59,157 nucleotides of DNA from Nitrospira sp. (GTDB taxonomy: Bacteria; Nitrospirota; Nitrospiria; Nitrospirales; Nitrospiraceae), in NCBI GenBank assembly GCA_016873515.1, contig VGXB01000008.1, positions 1 to 59,157 on the forward strand, given 5' to 3'. Numbering within the stretch: the stretch's first letter is position 1; every line of letters starts with the position of its first letter. The position numbers and the translations under genes were made by a program. Under the pieces are notes generated by a model, which was given only the letters and a program-made list of their open reading frames with translations, made no database searches and had not been told where the DNA came from. Below are positions 3,643-54,774 of this stretch, one piece after another.

Positions 3643-3992
3643 ACACCGACATTTTCATCGACTATTTCAACACGGGCCGATTCCACGCATTATTCGATCC
3701 TAGCCGATTCACCCTGTATTATTCGATCATCACAAAGAAGGAGCTGCTGGCGAAACCAGGTCTCCGCGACAACGAACGCGTATCTATTTGGGACGAATTA
3801 CGCCGCTGCCACCTCATTCCACTTACGGATACGATTGCGGCGCGTTATTCCGAGCTTCGCCGCAAACATCCCTCACTCGAAAAAGGTAACGTACTCATCG
3901 CCGCGACAGCTCGCCTCAAACAACTACCCTTGATGACCAGAAACAAACGGCATTTCAGGATGATAGCCGGCCTGACCTTATTCGGAGAGTGA
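3618..3992 (+). CDS. vapC: PIN-domain ribonuclease toxin (VapC-like)
   Basis: 124-residue PIN-domain protein. VapC toxins cleave specific RNAs (often tRNA or 23S rRNA) with Mg2+ held by conserved acidic residues. Here LLDTDIFIDYF supplies D9, D11 and D15, and TKKELL supplies E42. In the third conserved block, where most family members read (P/G)DALIAATA, this protein has GNVLIAATA with Asn at position 91. The fourth site region is TRNKRHF. Activity could therefore be reduced, or metal binding rearranged. It is co-transcribed with the overlapping antitoxin gene. Confidence 0.8.
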   Translation: MGKIPILLDTDIFIDYFNTGRFHALFDPSRFTLYYSIITKKELLAKPGLRDNERVSIWDELRRCHLIPLTDTIAARYSELRRKHPSLEKGNVLIAATARLKQLPLMTRNKRHFRMIAGLTLFGE

Positions 3993-4063
3993 GCATCTTC
4001 CCAACCTCTCCATTCGCGCCACTCGCCTTGACAAAGCTTGAAAGCGGGTGCTACCACCGTCGC

Positions 4064-4840
4064 ATGGTGCGAACTGACCATCCCTCTATGGCACAAGAAT
4101 CGCCCACGCCGGCGCAGATTGTATCCACATGGTCCGGGCAGGCCCGCGAAAATGCGGTCCAGCGGATGTTCACAGCCATTGCCGGCGTCTACGATCTGAA
4201 CAACACACTCTTAAGCTTTGGGCTTCACTACCGTTGGAAGAAGATTGCGGCCTCGTTTGTCACGCCGGTCGAACAAGGTACGGCGCTGGATGTCGGAGCC
4301 GGCACGGCAGATCTCGCACTGCTCGTGGAGCCGCGAATGGGCGCTCAGGGACGCGTGGTGGCATCTGATCTGAACTATGCCATGTTGGCTGAAGGGCAGA
4401 AAAAAGTTGCCGCTAAGGGACGGGCGAACGTCATCACCTGCTTGCAAGCAAGCGCGGAACATTTAGGTTTTGCGGACAATACCTTCGACGTGGTGACGAC
4501 CGGGTTCTGCATGCGGAACGTCGGCAATCTGCTTCAAGCCGTGAGCGAGATCCGTCGGGTCATGAAACCGGGCAGCCGGTTTGTCTGTTTGGAGTTCTCT
4601 CGGCCTGTCTTCAGCTGGCTACGGGCGCTCTACGATTGGTACTCGTTCACTCTCTTACCCTGGGTTGGCACCAAAGTCGCGCGCGACCGCACCGGCGTCT
4701 ATGAATACTTGCCTGCGTCGATCCGCACCTTTCCAGATCAAGAGCGGCTTTGCCAAATCCTACGCACCGCCGGCTTTCAACATGTAGAGTATCGCAACCT
4801 GACGGGCGGAATTGTAGCGATCCATGTAGCGACCAAATGA
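4064..4840 (+). CDS. ubiE: UbiE/MenG-family quinone methyltransferase
   Basis: SAM-dependent methyltransferase of the UbiE/MenG family, which C-methylates the quinone ring in ubiquinone or menaquinone synthesis. Motif I is LDVGAGTADLALL. Family signatures FTAIAGVYDLNNTLLSFGLH near the N-terminus and the stretch VTTGFCMRNVGN are clear, as is the late block GVYEYLPASIRTFP. Which quinone is the substrate cannot be read from the sequence. ATG 4064 is used; ATG 4088 (MAQESPTP) is a good alternative, and neither has a clear SD. Confidence 0.85.
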   Translation: MVRTDHPSMAQESPTPAQIVSTWSGQARENAVQRMFTAIAGVYDLNNTLLSFGLHYRWKKIAASFVTPVEQGTALDVGAGTADLALLVEPRMGAQGRVVASDLNYAMLAEGQKKVAAKGRANVITCLQASAEHLGFADNTFDVVTTGFCMRNVGNLLQAVSEIRRVMKPGSRFVCLEFSRPVFSWLRALYDWYSFTLLPWVGTKVARDRTGVYEYLPASIRTFPDQERLCQILRTAGFQHVEYRNLTGGIVAIHVATK

Positions 4841-4936: not shown

Positions 4937-6559
4937 ATGAACTCCATTCTCTACATCTTCCTCCCCTGCAAGAAGGTCTATCCCATCGGGATTACCTATT
5001 TGGCTGACTTCGTCCATCGGCGGAAGCCAGCGGTCCGCCAACGCATTCTGGACCTCTCGCTCTTTCCCATTGCGCAACGGAGCCAAGCGATCCGAGATGC
5101 CGCGACGGAGTTCAGGCCGGATCTCGTCTGTTTCTCCTGGCGGGACATCCAAATCTTTTCACCGCACGAAGGCGATTCCTCGCTCGAACATGCGTTCAAT
5201 TTCTATTTCGCCAGCAATCCGCTGAAGAAAATTACTGCCTCCATCGAGGGGGTCAAGCAACTCTATCGCTACTACAATCATATCTATACGATCCTGTCCT
5301 ATCCGGCATTGGTTCGAAAAGAATTTCCCAAAGCTCAGATCTTAATCGGGGGTGGGGCCTTCACTGCCTTTGCCGATCAGTTGATTGAAAAACTACCGGA
5401 AGGGACGATCGGAATTCTCGGTGAGGGTGAGGATGCGATCCTCAAACTCCTTGAAGGCCACTCGATCGACGATGAGCGCTATATCATCAGGAACGGCAAG
5501 CAGATCAAGAAGGGTACCCAGGGCTCGCCTCCGCTGTTGGATGCCCCGGCTGTCGACCTACCCTATCTGACCTCGATCTTCCCGCAATGGCGTGAATACG
5601 AAGGGGAATCGATCGGGGTCCAGTCGAAACGCGGCTGTCCCTACGACTGTGCCTTCTGCCTCTATCCCTACATTGAAGGGAAACGGGTGCGCTATCGTCC
5701 CGCGGAGATGGTTGTCAAAGACATCTCGCAGCACTATCACCAGTGGGGTGCCCGGCGGTTTTGGTTTACCGACGCGCAGTTCATTACGGGAAAAGAAGCC
5801 TATCCCCAATGTACGGAGATCATGGAGCGCATCATCAGCGAAAAGCTGGAGATCGAGTGGTCCGGCTATATCCGCACCTCGTTGATTACCCCCGACTTCG
5901 CCAAGCTGATGGTCCGATCCGGAGTGGGCGACTTAGAAGTCGCGATTACCTCCGGCTCACAAGAAGTGCTGAATAATCTTCATATGGGCTTCAAACTCGA
6001 ACGGCTGTACGACGGCTGTCGCTACCTGGCGGAAGCAGGGTTCAAGGGCAAGGTCATCCTCAATTATTCCCTGAACAGCCCCAAAGAGACGGAAGAAACC
6101 CTGCTCCAGAGCGTCGAGTCGTACAAAGTAGTGGCGTCGATCCTGGGCGAGGAACGAGTCTTCCCACTGATGTTTTTCTTGGGTATCCAACCCAATACCG
6201 ATCTGGAACAGCGGCTACTTGAAGAAGGCTACTTATCGGTAGGCTACAATCCGTTGATGTTGACACCGACCAGCATCAGAAAGCTGCTCTATAATCCGGC
6301 CCCATTGAATTCGTTTATCGCCAAAGCTTGCCTGCGTGCCTGGGAACGCAAACAAGGAAGCCACGATCCGCGCAAATGGACCGGCTCGCTGTCCCAGACA
6401 TTAGAGTCATCCACGTACGCTGATAAGAACTTGAGCAAGGGCATTGAAGGCAACTCCGGTCGCGACGCGCTTCTCTCCCTTGAAGAAATCCTCCGGTCGC
6501 GACGGCCCACCCCGACTCCTTCTCAGACAACGGAACCTCGAGTGTCCTCAGTCGGCTGA
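4937..6559 (+). CDS. Cobalamin-binding radical SAM protein
   Basis: 540-residue enzyme with an N-terminal B12-binding-like Rossmann region (about 1-180, including PKAQILIGGGAFTAF and GILGEGEDAILKLL) and a radical SAM barrel with the cluster motif C234-x3-C238-x2-C241 (RGCPYDCAFC). This architecture includes methylases, cyclases and lipid- or cofactor-modifying enzymes; the substrate here is not recognisable. The N-terminus starts directly in the fold (MNSILYIFLPCKKVYPIGIT). The last 80 residues are low-complexity and polar. No neighbour suggests a pathway: ubiE lies upstream and a Usp/PCP_red protein downstream. No SD is obvious. Confidence 0.85.
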   Translation: MNSILYIFLPCKKVYPIGITYLADFVHRRKPAVRQRILDLSLFPIAQRSQAIRDAATEFRPDLVCFSWRDIQIFSPHEGDSSLEHAFNFYFASNPLKKITASIEGVKQLYRYYNHIYTILSYPALVRKEFPKAQILIGGGAFTAFADQLIEKLPEGTIGILGEGEDAILKLLEGHSIDDERYIIRNGKQIKKGTQGSPPLLDAPAVDLPYLTSIFPQWREYEGESIGVQSKRGCPYDCAFCLYPYIEGKRVRYRPAEMVVKDISQHYHQWGARRFWFTDAQFITGKEAYPQCTEIMERIISEKLEIEWSGYIRTSLITPDFAKLMVRSGVGDLEVAITSGSQEVLNNLHMGFKLERLYDGCRYLAEAGFKGKVILNYSLNSPKETEETLLQSVESYKVVASILGEERVFPLMFFLGIQPNTDLEQRLLEEGYLSVGYNPLMLTPTSIRKLLYNPAPLNSFIAKACLRAWERKQGSHDPRKWTGSLSQTLESSTYADKNLSKGIEGNSGRDALLSLEEILRSRRPTPTPSQTTEPRVSSVG

Positions 6560-6783: not shown

Positions 6784-8886
6784 ATGTATAAGACCATCTA
6801 TATCCCGGTTGATAACTCCGACCATTCCAACACCGCCGTGGACGTCGGCGTCCATATGGCCAAGATCTTGGGTTCTAAGATCGTGGGCAGCCACGTCTAT
6901 GCCGCCAAGATGCACGACAAGCGCTTCAAGCAAATGGAGGCGGGACTTCCTGAAGAGTACCACGACGAGAAGGAGCTCGACCGCCAGCGGCAGATCCACG
7001 ACTCCCTGATCACCCGCGGGTTGCAGATCATCACCGATTCCTACCTCGACTATGTCGATAAGAAGTGCACCGAGTCTAATCTGCCGCTCGAACGCCGATC
7101 GCTCGAAGGACGCAATTGGAAAGTACTCTCCGAAGACATCAACACGAACGGGTACGATCTCGTCATCATGGGCGCATTGGGTGTGGGCGCCGTGAAGGAC
7201 AGTGTTATCGGCAGCAACACGGAACGGGTGGTGCGACGGGTCCGCAACTCCGACATGCTGATCATCAAGCACACCCAGCCGATGACAAACGGCAAAATTG
7301 TTGTCGCGGTGGACGGCAGCCCTTATTCGTTTGGCGGGTTGATGACAGGCCTGCAATTGGGCAAGGCGTTGAACATGCCCGTTGAAGCCATCTCAGCGTT
7401 CGACCCTTATTTCCACTATGCCGCGTTTCACAGCATCTCCGGCGTCTTGAACGAGGAAGCGGGGAAAGTCTTCCGATTCAAGGAGCAGGAAAAACTGCAC
7501 GAAGAAATTATCGACAGTGGTCTGGCCAAAATCTATCAATCTCACCTCGACATCTCTCGGGAGCTCGCCCAGGCCGAGCAAACCGACGTAAAAACCACCT
7601 TGCTCGACGGCAAAGCGTTCGAGAAGATCATTCAATACGTGCGCAAGGACGTTCCAGCCCTGTTGATCGTTGGCCGCATCGGCGTCCACAGCGACGAGGA
7701 TATGGACATCGGCAGCAATACGGAAAATCTGCTCCGGAGTGCGCCCTGCAATGTCCTGGTCTCGAACCGCAAGTACGTGCCGCCGATCGACACCCAAGCG
7801 GAATACACGATCGCCTGGACAGAAGAAGCCTTGCGCCGGATGGAAAAAATCCCCGTCTTTGCACGCGGCGTCGCCAAGACTGCCATTCACCGGTATGCGA
7901 TTGAAAAGGGACATACGATCATCAGCAATACCGTTGTGGATACGGCGGTTGGCCATATCCTGCCTAAAGGCGCCATGGATGCGATGCGAGCTCTGGGCGG
8001 CAGCCTGGACGCAGCCGGTATCGACCGCGATAAGATGCAGGCGGACGACGCGGTGGCGAAAGAGCTCATGGGTTCGACGCTCAGCAGCATGATGACCCAG
8101 GTGGTGGAAGAAAAACCCGTGGTGTCCGAGGCGACCCAAGCCTACCTAGACCGCATGAACCAAAACTATTTTGTGTGTGACGGTTGCGGGTACATCGGCA
8201 AGGGCGAGCCTCCAGTGAAGTGCCCGGTCTGCGCGGCTGACGGTGTCAAATTCAAACAAGTTGACAAGAGTATCTTCGATGCCGCAGCCAAATCCGAAGG
8301 TGTACTGGAAACTGACCTCGCGTACGACGACGTGCCGATGCAATGGACAAAAGATGCCAAAGAAGCGATCCGGGCTGTACCTGCCGGATTCCAACGCCGC
8401 CGCGCCAAGGCGAAGATCGAAAAGAGCGCGCGCAAGCTCGGCATGACCACGATCACGTTAGAATACGCCGCCCCGATGATCAAAGAGGCGGCAGACGAAG
8501 ACTACCAACCAATCTTCGCCAACAAGGGCACTGGGACTTCCACCGACGCAGAAGCTAAACTGGCTTCCGTAAGCGAATCCATCTCCAATAGGAACATGGG
8601 GCACGAGCAGGCTCCCGTAAATAACGGCAACGGCCATACGGAATCGTCCCCCTGTACCTGGACGGCTGATGCACAGGCCAGATTGGACCGGGCACCGGAA
8701 GGATTTATGCGAGACTGCACCAAAGCGCTGATCATCAAGCACGCCGAGACGATCGGGGTGACACACATTACGCTCGAAGTCGCCAATGAAGGGATCGAAC
8801 AGGCGAAGGGATATATGGCCGATGCCATGAAAACCGGCGACCTCAAGAGCATGATCGCAAACCTGACAGGCAAGGGAAGTTCTTAA
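6784..8886 (+). CDS. Double universal-stress protein fused to PCP_red and rubredoxin-like domains
   Basis: 700-residue soluble fusion. Two UspA-like domains (about 1-165 and 170-330) each keep an ATP-binding-type glycine loop (GALGVGAVKDSVIGSNT; GRIGVHSDEDMDIGSNT). Then come a PCP_red domain (341-395, IAWTEEALRRMEKIPVFARG), a rubredoxin-like knuckle (C465-x2-C468, C480-x2-C483) and two more PCP_red domains (518-570, MQWTKDAKEAIRAVPAGF; 623-680, CTWTADAQARLDRAPEGF). PCP_red is known as the C-terminal domain of the dark protochlorophyllide reductase B subunit; its role here is unknown. ATG 6784 is chosen because it has an AAGGA SD and begins directly in the Usp fold (MYKTIYIPVD). The next gene ends in the same domain, so a shared function is likely. 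The enzymatic or sensory role is not visible. Confidence 0.85.
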   Translation: MYKTIYIPVDNSDHSNTAVDVGVHMAKILGSKIVGSHVYAAKMHDKRFKQMEAGLPEEYHDEKELDRQRQIHDSLITRGLQIITDSYLDYVDKKCTESNLPLERRSLEGRNWKVLSEDINTNGYDLVIMGALGVGAVKDSVIGSNTERVVRRVRNSDMLIIKHTQPMTNGKIVVAVDGSPYSFGGLMTGLQLGKALNMPVEAISAFDPYFHYAAFHSISGVLNEEAGKVFRFKEQEKLHEEIIDSGLAKIYQSHLDISRELAQAEQTDVKTTLLDGKAFEKIIQYVRKDVPALLIVGRIGVHSDEDMDIGSNTENLLRSAPCNVLVSNRKYVPPIDTQAEYTIAWTEEALRRMEKIPVFARGVAKTAIHRYAIEKGHTIISNTVVDTAVGHILPKGAMDAMRALGGSLDAAGIDRDKMQADDAVAKELMGSTLSSMMTQVVEEKPVVSEATQAYLDRMNQNYFVCDGCGYIGKGEPPVKCPVCAADGVKFKQVDKSIFDAAAKSEGVLETDLAYDDVPMQWTKDAKEAIRAVPAGFQRRRAKAKIEKSARKLGMTTITLEYAAPMIKEAADEDYQPIFANKGTGTSTDAEAKLASVSESISNRNMGHEQAPVNNGNGHTESSPCTWTADAQARLDRAPEGFMRDCTKALIIKHAETIGVTHITLEVANEGIEQAKGYMADAMKTGDLKSMIANLTGKGSS

Positions 8887-8924
8887 GTGCTGGGTTTTGA
8901 GTTTGACGAGCACCAGTTGCGCTC

Positions 8925-9060
8925 CGTTCTTTAACTCAGTCCTCAGCACTCAATCCTCAGCACTCAAAGACATGGGCAAATCGCTTCCCATCTTCGACTC
9001 CTCAATGTTGCCTCGGCCTGAGCACCTCTCAGTCCTCAGGACTCAGAACTCAGCACTTGT
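8925..9060 (+). repeat. CTCAGTCCTCAGCACT-type direct repeats running into a CDS
   Basis: Copies of a roughly 9-14 nt word lie on both sides of the ATG at 8972: ACTCAGTCCTCAGCACTCAA, TCCTCAGCACTCAAAGA and, after it, CTCAGTCCTCAGGACTCAGA followed by ACTCAGCACTT. The second cluster is translated as LSVLRTQNSAL in the radical SAM protein if the start is right. A similar word (CTCAGCCCTCAGTCCGCAGC) occurs near 3263. Confidence 0.6.
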
Positions 9061-10336
9061 TCACGACGGCCGAACCGTCGATGATTTCAAGCCATATCTA
9101 GTCGCGTTGAATCTGACCAAGCGCTGCAACCTGAAATGCGACCATTGCTATCTAGATGCTACGACTAAAGCGGCCGGCGGCAATGACGAACTGTCCACGA
9201 ATGAATGTTTCCGGCTCATTGACCAAATCGCTGAAGTCAATAAAGGGTGCCTCCTGGTCATCACCGGCGGCGAGCCGCTAGTCCGCCCGGATATTCTCGA
9301 CATCGCCCGCTATGCCGTGAAGCTCGGCTTCATGGTCGTCTTCGGCACCAACGGCATGCTCATCGACGACCAGATGGCCAAAACCCTGGTCGAAATCGGC
9401 GTGATGGGCGTGGGTATCAGTATCGATTCGCTCGATCCGGCCAAACACAATGCCTTCCGCGGCGTACCCGGCGCGTGGGAAGCGGCAGTCGCTGGAATCG
9501 AGGCCAGCAAACGCAACGGCCTCCAATTCCAAATTCATTTCAGCGCACAGCCGATGAACTACCAGGAACTACCGGCTATCATCGACTGGGCCCATGGGCT
9601 CGGTGCCCGTGTGCTGAATGTCTTCTTCATGGTTTGCACAGGCCGCGGCGAGGAATTAACCGACATCACTCCGGCACAATACGAAGAAGTTCTCGGTTAT
9701 CTGGTGACCTGCCAGGACAACTATCAAGGCATGCTCGTTCGGGCCCGCTGCGCCCCGCACTTCAAACGGTTGGCTTACGAAAAAGATCCCAATTCGCCGA
9801 TCACAAAGGCCACTGGATATATGGGTGGCGGGTGCCTGGCGGGAACGAATTACGCCCGTGTGACGCCCAACGGTGAACTGACCCCCTGCCCCTACATGCC
9901 CCTGTCGGCTGGAAACGTCAGGCAGGATAGCTTTGCCGATCTGTGGACTCGATCCGATATCTTCAACTCATTCCGCTACCCGCAACTCAAAGGCAAATGC
10001 GGCGATTGCGAGTACACCGACATCTGCGGAGGCTGCCGTGCTCGTCCCTATGTGGACCACGGAGACTGGTTGGACGAAGACCAGTGGTGTCTGTATACGC
10101 CTAAAGGCGGTGAGAAAATCAAAGTGGCATTCAACACGCCAGAAGAAACTGAGGTGGCCTGGGATGACGCATCGACGTTGCGCTTGAGCCGCATCCCCTA
10201 CTTCCTCCGCGCGATGGTCAAAAAAGGCGTCGAAAAACACGCCCGCGAAAACAATGTCGCGCTCATTACTGTCGAATTGATGGAAGAGCTGCGCAAGAAA
10301 CGCTTCGGCAACGAGACGCCGGTGTTCAAATTCTAA
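8972..10336 (+). CDS. Radical SAM/SPASM protein with C-terminal PCP_red domain (NirJ/AhbC-like)
   Basis: 454-residue radical SAM enzyme. The [4Fe-4S]-SAM motif is C52-x3-C56-x2-C59 in LTKRCNLKCDHCY, GGEPL follows, and a C-terminal SPASM-type cluster region has CLAG, CPYMP, CGDCEYTDICGGC and WCLY. Overall it resembles NirJ/AhbC/AhbD enzymes, which modify siroheme or coproheme side chains, and peptide-modifying SPASM enzymes; a heme-type substrate is inference. The last 60 residues are a PCP_red domain (VAWDDASTLRLSRIPYFLRA...). The start is uncertain: ATG 8972 or 9005 are possible, there is no SD, and residues 19-29 derive from a spacer repeat. Likely partner of the Usp/PCP_red gene 85 nt upstream. 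Confidence 0.85.
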   Translation: MGKSLPIFDSSMLPRPEHLSVLRTQNSALVHDGRTVDDFKPYLVALNLTKRCNLKCDHCYLDATTKAAGGNDELSTNECFRLIDQIAEVNKGCLLVITGGEPLVRPDILDIARYAVKLGFMVVFGTNGMLIDDQMAKTLVEIGVMGVGISIDSLDPAKHNAFRGVPGAWEAAVAGIEASKRNGLQFQIHFSAQPMNYQELPAIIDWAHGLGARVLNVFFMVCTGRGEELTDITPAQYEEVLGYLVTCQDNYQGMLVRARCAPHFKRLAYEKDPNSPITKATGYMGGGCLAGTNYARVTPNGELTPCPYMPLSAGNVRQDSFADLWTRSDIFNSFRYPQLKGKCGDCEYTDICGGCRARPYVDHGDWLDEDQWCLYTPKGGEKIKVAFNTPEETEVAWDDASTLRLSRIPYFLRAMVKKGVEKHARENNVALITVELMEELRKKRFGNETPVFKF

Positions 10337-10487: not shown

Positions 10488-10997
10488 GTGGATGCCCTTG
10501 ACAGCATTTCCCTCGATCTTCGCATGTTGATCCCGATCCTCAACCACTGGGTTCACCTTGTGTCGGCGGTGATCTGGATCGGCGGATTGGCCTTTCTTGT
10601 GATGGCAGTCACACCAGGACTGCAGAAGGCCGTGGCGAAGGACCAGATTAAGCCCATCACTGACGCATTCTACCAGCATTACAAGAAAGTCGCGGGCATC
10701 CTCCTCGTGGTCCTGCTGTTCACCGGCGGCATCAACGTGCACTACGTCAATCAAGTCATTACGTCACAAACTGGTGCCGGTATGCAGCACCATGCTAAGT
10801 ACCTGATCGTCTTTTGCGTCAAACTACTGCTCGTCCTTGGACTCCTCACGCTGTTTCTCTATACCGTGATCTTCAAATCCGACGACTATGCAGAAGAAGG
10901 CGAGTCGTATGAAGCCATCCCGTTCCAGCATGCCGCACTCTGGATGGGCTTCTTCATCATCCTCTGTGCCGCCGCCATGAAACACCTACACCAGTAA
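10488..10997 (+). CDS. Four-TM membrane protein (CopD/HemJ-like fold)
   Basis: About 169 residues with four hydrophobic helices: NHWVHLVSAVIWIGGLAFL, VAGILLVVLLFTGGINVHY, LIVFCVKLLLVLGLLTLFLY and AALWMGFFIILCAAAMKH. The first helix motif HxxHxxxAxxWIGG and further His and Lys residues near helices 2 and 3 resemble small heme- or copper-linked membrane families (CopD-like, HemJ-like). I cannot assign it to one. It follows the radical SAM/PCP_red gene in the same orientation, so a tetrapyrrole link is plausible but unproven. GTG 10488 is used; ATG 10524 is an alternative, which starts just before the first helix. Confidence 0.75.
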   Translation: MDALDSISLDLRMLIPILNHWVHLVSAVIWIGGLAFLVMAVTPGLQKAVAKDQIKPITDAFYQHYKKVAGILLVVLLFTGGINVHYVNQVITSQTGAGMQHHAKYLIVFCVKLLLVLGLLTLFLYTVIFKSDDYAEEGESYEAIPFQHAALWMGFFIILCAAAMKHLHQ

Positions 10998-39964: not shown

Positions 39965-40966
39965 TTAGAGTGCCCCTTCGCCTTTGAGGTATCTGCGGAA
40001 GCGATCCATCAGCTCGGCCCCCAGCGTTCCCCCCTCCGGCTTCTTGGTCGAGGGATCAGCAAAGTGGCCGCGGATTTCCTGGAGCCTTTTTTCGGCCTGG
40101 TCGTTCCCTTGCAGACGTTTGGTTTTCTGTAGCGCGGCTTCAAACGCATCGAAGGTCAGTTCGCTGTATCCAAACGCCCGAATGCGTTTCACGGCCTTCA
40201 TCATTGCCTGATTGCGAAACGTCGTCAGATGGTCCGAGTCGATCTCGGCTAATCCCAATTTCCTCGCCCGCCGCTCCGCCGCCTTTCGAATACCGCTTCG
40301 CACGAAATCCGGAGCCGTTTGCAGCCGTTTCCATGCCTCGTCGGTCCAAATCATACGGTCTTGCGGGACATCCCACAGCTGAGACAATCTCTGGGCATCG
40401 ATCACGGCGAAGGCTCGCTCGTGCGCCAAATCCTCGGCGTCCCGCTTGAGCATATCCGTCACAAATTCTGCGGCGATCGGAGGTGATTCTTTGACTTTCT
40501 CGTGCAACTGCACCAGCGCGTCTTCGGTCCATTCGATGGCGGGTCCTGCAGCGTCTTGCAAGTCACCGAGGGCTTCCACCTTTTCATATAATTCTACGTT
40601 CACTTCAAGATGCCCACGCTCTCTGGCAATCTCTTCGGCAATTTGCTGAATCATGTGACGCATGAACTCAGGTACACCGGCCAATTTCTCCCTGGCGGCA
40701 GCCGTCCAGGGGAGACGGCCCTGCGCCATCACTTCGGCAGCCGCCGCCAGCCCGGATTCTTCCCCCATACTGCCCATCATCTGGCCCTTGAATCGATCCA
40801 GCACATCTTCGGTAATTTCCGCAATCCCCAGCTCGCGAGCTTTTTTCTCAGCCACACGACGGACCATCCCGCGCAGGAAGATTGGCGCGCGGTCCATGCG
40901 TGTCAATGCGCCGGGTGTCCAGCGAACTTCCGTGGCATTCGATTCGGATGAATTGGGGATGGACAC
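39965..40966 (-). CDS. Tandem PCP_red-domain protein (four copies)
   Basis: 333-residue soluble protein made almost wholly of PCP_red-type units: 14-60 (VRWTPGALTRMDRAPIFLRG), 84-132 (LPWTAAAREKLAGVPEFMRH), 144-195 (IEWTEDALVQLHEKV) and 205-255 (MIWTDEAWKRLQTAPDFVRS). A possible fifth, partial unit follows at 255-285. Each keeps the W-T...A...P-F-x-R core and a helix with (V/A)E..AR..G. In photosynthetic bacteria the domain belongs to the dark protochlorophyllide reductase subunit B; its function here is unknown. It sits 19 nt after the HU/IHF gene, last in the aromatic/rpsA run. Confidence 0.8.
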   Translation of the reverse strand: MSIPNSSESNATEVRWTPGALTRMDRAPIFLRGMVRRVAEKKARELGIAEITEDVLDRFKGQMMGSMGEESGLAAAAEVMAQGRLPWTAAAREKLAGVPEFMRHMIQQIAEEIARERGHLEVNVELYEKVEALGDLQDAAGPAIEWTEDALVQLHEKVKESPPIAAEFVTDMLKRDAEDLAHERAFAVIDAQRLSQLWDVPQDRMIWTDEAWKRLQTAPDFVRSGIRKAAERRARKLGLAEIDSDHLTTFRNQAMMKAVKRIRAFGYSELTFDAFEAALQKTKRLQGNDQAEKRLQEIRGHFADPSTKKPEGGTLGAELMDRFRRYLKGEGAL

Positions 40967-54051: not shown

Positions 54052-54774
54052 CTACATGAATTTCATGAACTTGTCCTTGGCATCATCCATCACTTGCGCC
54101 GTGATGGTGGCTAGCCCTCGCTCCTTGGCCATCCGCTCCACTTCTTTCCGGGCCATCGGACGGATGAAATCAGGAATGTTCTCCAACCGCTGCTCGGCTT
54201 CGCGTGACCAGGTCATGCCCTCCGGGGAATAATTCTTGGCATCATCCATCACTTGCAGAGTGATGCTCTTGAACCCCTGCTTGCGCGCATAGCCCTCCAC
54301 ACTCGCCTGCACCATCGGCTTCACGAACGCCGGCAGCCGATCCAGTTTCTCTTTTGCATCCGCCGTCCATGTAAATTCCGCAGGCCCGCCGTTCATTGGC
54401 TTCCCGGAGTTCGTCAATCCCATCTCAGCGACCATAGCGGAGAAGGGACAGCCACTCGCTTTTTCAGGGGCCTTCGCAGGCGATGTCGCCGTGGCCGCGA
54501 TCGCTGGTGCGGCCGGATTGGGCATTGGAGCAGAGGCAGTCTGACCATTTCCTCCGAGGGCGCGTAACCCGTCCAGAGAGGCGGCCGGCTCAGCCTTCGG
54601 ACTGAGCTTCAAACCGAGAGAATTCATCATGTTCGTTTCGCCGGCGTTGGTGACCATCGAAAACTTGGCATTGCAGGACGGACAGCCGAAGAACACCCCA
54701 AGAGAACTTTCACCAGGCTTTTCAACCTTTTCCAGATTCATGTAAGTTTCACAATTGAGACACACGAACTTCAT
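54052..54774 (-). CDS. Zinc-ribbon protein with two PCP_red domains
   Basis: 240 residues: an N-terminal zinc ribbon (C5-x2-C8, C31-x2-C34), a low-complexity Ala/Pro linker (about 60-130), then two PCP_red domains, 133-180 (FTWTADAKEKLDRLPAFVKP) and 186-235 (MTWSREAEQRLENIPDFIRP), each ending in the same ITxQVMDDAK phrase. The two copies are more like each other than most, suggesting local duplication. Function unknown; the domain is related to the end of the dark protochlorophyllide reductase B subunit. SD GAGGAG. It stands alone between yebC and the sulfate operon. Confidence 0.8.
   Translation of the reverse strand: MKFVCLNCETYMNLEKVEKPGESSLGVFFGCPSCNAKFSMVTNAGETNMMNSLGLKLSPKAEPAASLDGLRALGGNGQTASAPMPNPAAPAIAATATSPAKAPEKASGCPFSAMVAEMGLTNSGKPMNGGPAEFTWTADAKEKLDRLPAFVKPMVQASVEGYARKQGFKSITLQVMDDAKNYSPEGMTWSREAEQRLENIPDFIRPMARKEVERMAKERGLATITAQVMDDAKDKFMKFM

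Follow-up and report, generated by a model that had tools for sequence, protein, structure and literature searches.

What does a protein that joins two universal stress protein (Usp) domains to three PCP_red units and a rubredoxin-like knuckle do in Nitrospira, and is such a protein more than an accident of one genome? The protein, P0001, is encoded on the forward strand at positions 6784..8886 of the window (the whole stretch of 59,157 nucleotides that was analysed) by one open frame of 700 aa, which starts with ATG at 6784 behind AAGGAAG and stops at 8886, and its order Usp-Usp-PCP_red-rubredoxin-like-PCP_red-PCP_red was assigned from the ORF, Pfam and orthologues. Pfam gave 109.2 bits for Usp over two stretches (cut-off 24) and 107.8 bits for PCP_red over three stretches (cut-off 32.5). 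Homologues were found in 39/39 genomes of the nearest set (own genome included; nearly all complete or near-complete) and were mostly 73-93% identical to P0001, which excludes chance. A one-off fusion in this genome was ruled out by the orthologues in these 39/39 close genomes and in 57/148 genomes of the phylum, and the domain make-up as first described was confirmed as real.

Usp domain 1 (residues 1-165, 6784..7278) and Usp domain 2 (residues 166-331, 7279..7776), both on the forward strand like all features of P0001 given below, were recognised by Pfam, AlphaFold2 and VIA-align alignment to tandem Usps. In the AlphaFold2 model built from 35 sequences (mean pLDDT 78.6, pTM 0.55), in which the linkers 415-446 and 575-621 were unordered, the protein formed a tandem Usp, with Z 28.4 to Rv2623 and Z 28.2 to ATP-bound TTHA0350 in a fold search that was hardly informative past residue 330 when run with the 700-aa model. 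The nucleotide motif G-2x-G-9x-G-S was read from the sequence at residues 130-144 (7171..7215) and 297-311 (7672..7716); its three Gly were kept in 34-35/35 sequences in Usp 1 and were invariant in Usp 2 (35/35 sequences), and both Usp folds with their glycine loops, as claimed in the preliminary description, were therefore retained. Judging from these motifs, the Usp core is a putative binding site for ATP or a similar nucleotide. Both the fold and the nucleotide motifs are common to P0001 and the tandem Usps Rv2623, TTHA0350 and UspE.

In comparison with the paralogous tandem Usps of its taxonomic order that were checked, P0001 additionally has the PCP_red units, the knuckle and, in each Usp domain, a helical hairpin with His residues; none of the checked paralogues had these His hairpins. 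By model and alignment, the hairpin of Usp 1 covers residues 41-97 (6904..7074; helices 41-54 and 62-97 in the AlphaFold2 model) with H44, F48, Q68 and H72, and that of Usp 2 covers residues 210-264 (7411..7575; helices 210-221, 224-230 and 232-264) with H211, F215, Q235 and H239, each residue of the first set being spaced exactly 167 residues from its counterpart (H44/H211, F48/F215, Q68/Q235, H72/H239). All eight were invariant in 35/35 sequences, and since the loci of the named-genome scan were selected by patterns over H44-E52 and H239-L247, only F215, H211, H72, Q68 and Q235 are free of selection bias there. The four His were also invariant in alignment A1, which was assembled separately from 14 Nitrospirota sequences of genomes found by BLAST. 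In each hairpin the two His, H44 and H72 or H211 and H239, are placed about 14 residues before and after the turn, and are therefore predicted to face one another. These His are a candidate metal or heme site.

The three PCP_red units lie at 7816..7947 (53.1 bits), 8344..8463 (41.7 bits) and 8659..8784 (35.0 bits), and each of them individually exceeded the PF08369 cut-off of 32.5 in the genome-wide search, as the preliminary description had anticipated. Unit 1, modelled separately, has a true PCP_red fold, with Z 8.0 and 7.0 to 2kru and 2l09, and superposes on the C-terminal part of ChlB (2ynm_D) at 1.0 A over 50 residues. Thus HMM and fold of the unit are as in the C-terminus of DPOR subunit B (2kru, 2ynm chain D) and in the stand-alone protein Asr4154 (2l09). 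PCP_red also resembles the small helical domain found in AAA+ proteins, RuvB among them (Z about 6), a likeness that may reflect only a common arrangement. P0001 differs from DPOR subunit B in that Pfam recognised no Oxidored_nitro (nitrogenase-like) domain and the best full-length equivalog score to BchB/ChlB was 67.6 against a cut-off of 509; with no BchB-like or BchB-sized PCP_red frame in the genome, a DPOR remnant was ruled out. Separately, a BchB-like nitrogenase-type protein with PCP_red was observed in a Rubrobacter genome (L193:1163-2977; 442 bits, cut-off 509).

The rubredoxin-like knuckle, CxxCGY...CPVC at residues 463-491 (8170..8256), held up in its four Cys (CxxC and CPxC), which were kept in every aligned relative having the segment, whereas its RUBY_RBDX score of 25.6 bits fell just short of the Pfam cut-off of 26.5; a relative with three knuckles scored 55.2. 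A CxxCGY...CPxC knuckle is common to P0001 and the rubredoxin-like domain of rubrerythrin and nigerythrin, but no ferritin-like diiron domain was recognised in P0001.

The family of P0001 is old and widespread and, where annotation was found, is annotated only as universal stress protein. A member was present in every Nitrospirales genome searched, and at least 543 relatives turned up in the scan of named genomes; the 80 best of these relatives came from Nitrospirota, Poribacteria, Aquificaceae, Marinimicrobia, anammox Planctomycetes, Chloroflexi, Calditrichia, Rhodothermales, Rubrobacter, Nitrospinota and others. The order Usp-Usp-PCP-knuckle-PCP-PCP was common to Poribacteria, Marinimicrobia, Calditrichia, Rhodothermales and Rubrobacter, while simpler forms were present in anammox bacteria, Nitrospinota and Aquificaceae: tandem Usp with one PCP_red and no rubredoxin knuckle in the anammox loci, and tandem Usp alone in Aquificaceae and some Nitrospirota. 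At the other extreme, one class-level relative (L079:4459-7152, 883-898 aa) is an orthologue with module duplication that counts five PCP_red units and three rubredoxin-like knuckles.

In previous work the Kuenenia stuttgartiensis protein kustd1706 of the nxr cluster had no description beyond 'similar to UspA' and its expression data (PMC6423088). Three anammox loci (L124, L129 and L131), in which the Usp-PCP gene lies within the nxr cluster, fit the position of kustd1706 by gene order, and through this gene order it can be likened to their tandem Usp with PCP_red, which differs from P0001 in having one PCP_red and no knuckle instead of three PCP_red and a knuckle. No functional study of PCP_red, PF08369 or Nitrospira Usp proteins was found in the literature searched. 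Accordingly, the early remark that the combination had no known description stands as far as characterised orthologues are concerned, none having been found, but the architecture belongs to a broad family and is not unique. Each single domain is known; the hairpin motif appears to be undescribed, as do the fixed multi-domain architecture and the three-way co-inheritance presented below.

Downstream of P0001, a radical SAM (rSAM)/SPASM protein of the NirJ2/AhbD class with a C-terminal PCP_red was identified at 8972..10336 (forward strand; longest frame opening at 8897) from Pfam, NCBIfam, synteny and co-occurrence, with its own PCP_red unit at 10160..10294 (53.2 bits). A CopD-like membrane protein (10488..10997, forward strand; weak Pfam CopD, synteny) is the third gene of the cluster and recurs in other phyla (8/28 representative loci). 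Short repeated CTCAGCACTCA / CTCAGTCCTCA motifs were observed at 8925-9060, a stretch that spans the rSAM start. Radical_SAM and SPASM both exceeded the Pfam cut-off, and the CxxxCxxC and SPASM cysteines were conserved in alignment A3, which was used only for this cysteine pattern and includes one Usp protein, L141. The best curated families were NirJ2 (TIGR04055, 324.9 bits) and AhbD (TIGR04545, 311.2 bits), both short of the cut-off of 500, and a TIGR04545 score above 500 was found in 0/16 genomes. By its sequence the partner thus belongs to the NirJ/AhbD class in the wide sense, the same enzyme class as NirJ, NirJ2, AhbC and AhbD; the substrates of NirJ, AhbC and AhbD are all iron tetrapyrroles (PMC7242693). 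It differs from NirJ2 and AhbD in scoring below their cut-offs, in carrying PCP_red and in being a paralogue distinct from the better AhbD match that some genomes have, as in G100, G145 and the anammox genome G179 (444-496 bits). A plain AhbD or NirJ2 was ruled out by these scores and by the better AhbD matches elsewhere in the same genomes.

The rSAM gene directly adjoins the Usp gene in 68/72 Nitrospirota-derived loci and in 33/80 loci of the genome_contigs set. This adjacency extends to deep branches whose Usp protein is without PCP_red, and there an overlap of about 10 bases between the two genes is common. In Poribacteria and anammox bacteria the two genes lie apart, and Rubrobacter has the full architecture, yet no rSAM of the AhbD class was detected there at the cut-off used.

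PCP_red itself is more widely used, and the genome encodes four further PCP_red proteins. Two of them lie on the reverse strand of the window: a 333-aa protein with three to four units (39965..40966; Pfam 141.5 bits, and the fusion in L196) and a 240-aa protein with a CxxC/CPxC ribbon, a CPF motif and two units (54052..54774; Pfam 115.5 bits, alignment A4), whose orthologues are in the Usp/ApbC cluster of Poribacteria, Rhodothermales and Marinimicrobia. The rSAMs of family f15 and of anammox bacteria carry three to four units in a block resembling the 39965-40966 protein, which indicates that units move between these proteins; two such rSAMs (L196:1267-3414 and L194:4302-6188) bridge the rSAM and the PCP_red repeat protein of the window. 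In an anammox genome (L195:1964-3889), PCP_red is fused to a NIR_SIR/4Fe-4S protein that is encoded with the siroheme decarboxylase AhbA + AhbB, and a HemY-type porphyrinogen oxidase adjoins the rSAM-PCP gene in three genomes of family f15. Together these proteins suggest that PCP_red is linked to tetrapyrroles in general and is not specific to chlorophyll, and the units of P0001 may, from this gene context, have a role with tetrapyrroles. Mo and cytochrome c enzymes are also within the gene context, so that the target could be another cofactor.

Previous studies regarded the bd-like oxidase as the likely terminal oxidase of Nitrospira, and reported that a canonical heme-copper oxidase is missing from the Nitrospira genomes analysed so far (PMC6606698), with the exception of Nitrospira marina, which has a cbb3 oxidase; elsewhere the function of the bd-like oxidase was called enigmatic (PMC3578206). 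Among 148 Nitrospirota genomes, we found the Usp family in 57, the rSAM-PCP protein in 55 and the bd-like oxidase in 55, and no genome had the rSAM-PCP protein or the bd-like oxidase without the Usp family (co-occurrence Fisher p 9e-39, a value that ignores phylogeny). Outside the class of the window the counts were 15/17 versus 0/91 (p 1.6e-16, again ignoring phylogeny). The exceptions were few and came from draft assemblies, one of which was 70% complete. Within each of the families f15, f23 and f24, some genomes have the full set and others have no part of it, and therefore the link is not the result of one inheritance event. In 22/25 carrier genomes, mostly of other phyla, a bd-like oxidase was matched; the bd-type matches of Rubrobacter were weak and of canonical length only.

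Gene order pointed in the same direction. The deep branches have the order Usp-rSAM-bd-like oxidase-cytochromes, and about 20 kb of Poribacteria DNA holds the Usp-PCP gene together with a bd-like oxidase, cytochromes, cox1, ctaA, ctaB, cox3, cox4 and Sco1. On contig C7 of the window's own genome, a ribbon-PCP_red protein lies closely upstream of bd-like oxidases. A formylglycine-generating-enzyme-like protein (FGE-sulfatase, L184:8825-9739) was also observed in the bd-like oxidase cluster of this genome.

Starting from these domains, conserved motifs, partnership, co-inheritance and tetrapyrrole gene contexts, we tentatively propose, with a little less than even confidence, that P0001 is a cytoplasmic biogenesis factor for the iron-tetrapyrrole cofactors of bd-like-oxidase respiratory complexes and works with the neighbouring rSAM. 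We infer that each binding, catalytic and delivery step would proceed as follows: the tandem Usp core would bind ATP or a similar nucleotide; the hairpins, with two invariant His each, would bind iron, a metal-porphyrin or heme; the PCP_red units would be small porphyrin-handling or docking modules of a kind that the rSAM and the stand-alone PCP_red proteins also carry, and a porphyrin intermediate would thereby be handed on among these proteins without ever being free; the rubredoxin-like iron site would act as a redox gate or an electron source; and the finished or remodelled heme would pass to the bd-like oxidases and associated cytochromes. The preliminary description suggested a protein that senses or delivers a tetrapyrrole or responds to redox state, with the Usp domains as nucleotide switches; tetrapyrrole handling with such switches fits the ATP motifs, the rSAM partner with PCP_red and the ahbAB, HemY and ctaA-ctaB-cox contexts, but the view of a stand-alone sensor has given way to a rSAM partner and a tie to the bd-like oxidase. 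A gene pair that tracks the bd-like oxidase, with a rSAM of heme class, a porphyrin-associated domain and a place in the anammox nxr cluster, is a concrete entry to the assembly of this machinery.

Alternatively, P0001 would be a signalling protein of the Usp type: it would sense nucleotide and redox state (or heme) and regulate how far the high-potential respiratory chain is expressed or active, taking no part in cofactor synthesis. The canonical ATP motifs and the redox-type Cys4 knuckle are consistent with such a regulator, as are two expression studies: at low oxygen, UspA-family proteins of Nitrospira marina, which may or may not include the P0001 family, were strongly up beside co-induced operons (PMC8115632), and in Kuenenia fed NO the nxr-cluster member was down about 2.4-fold with its cluster (PMC6423088). 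However, no DNA-binding or output domain was recognised in P0001, PCP_red occurs with enzymes and not with regulators in all contexts examined, P0001 is tightly paired with one rSAM, and one to three PCP_red copies together with two His hairpins suggest substrate handling, so we consider a regulator rather unlikely.

P0001 and the rSAM might also carry out late heme b synthesis, either an AhbD-like coproheme conversion or even iron insertion, and so back up or replace ferrochelatase, and the distribution of ferrochelatase bears directly on this. Indeed, its loss was concentrated in carriers, since it was missing from 11/50 carrier genomes of good quality versus 1/60 others (p 0.001). In the window's order, five f3 genomes (G024, G027, G030, G033 and G036; 97-100% complete) had no detectable ferrochelatase (PF00762, 5/5), with hemY kept in 5/5 and HemE in the 2/2 tested; in G024 and G027, hemE and hemY lie side by side with no hemH. 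The HemY-type oxidase of the f15 operon and the 311 bits of the partner to AhbD agree with a heme b route. Against this, the window's genome and most carriers encode a ferrochelatase, which means that ordinary heme b synthesis proceeds without need of the module and that the module is not a simple replacement; moreover, the partner is far under the AhbD cut-off of 500, several genomes own a separate and better AhbD-like gene, and the distribution tracks the bd-like oxidase far better than the absence of ferrochelatase. We therefore regard a heme b route as unlikely. A broader form of the biogenesis proposal, to which we give a still smaller chance, holds that the Usp-PCP_red and rSAM-PCP_red proteins are an undescribed system for making or remodelling heme that would provide the bd-like oxidases of nitrite oxidisers and their relatives with a special iron-tetrapyrrole, with the four hairpin His holding iron or porphyrin, and that would also cover an iron-insertion or heme b step where ferrochelatase is missing.

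Modification of a bd-like complex subunit by the SPASM rSAM, with the Usp protein as scaffold and PCP_red as docking module only, would suit the peptide targets of many SPASM enzymes, the occurrence of PCP_red as repeats and stand-alone proteins and its resemblance to the AAA+ small helical domain, but it is very unlikely given that the best curated matches of the partner are NirJ2 and AhbD and that the gene context is rich in tetrapyrrole genes.

Upstream of P0001, the window encodes at 4937-6559 a B12-binding radical SAM protein like the photosystem II high-light-acclimation slr0320 family (447 bits, cut-off 775) and, beside it at 3989-4840, a methyl-plastoquinone-type MpqE methyltransferase (402.6 bits, cut-off 335).
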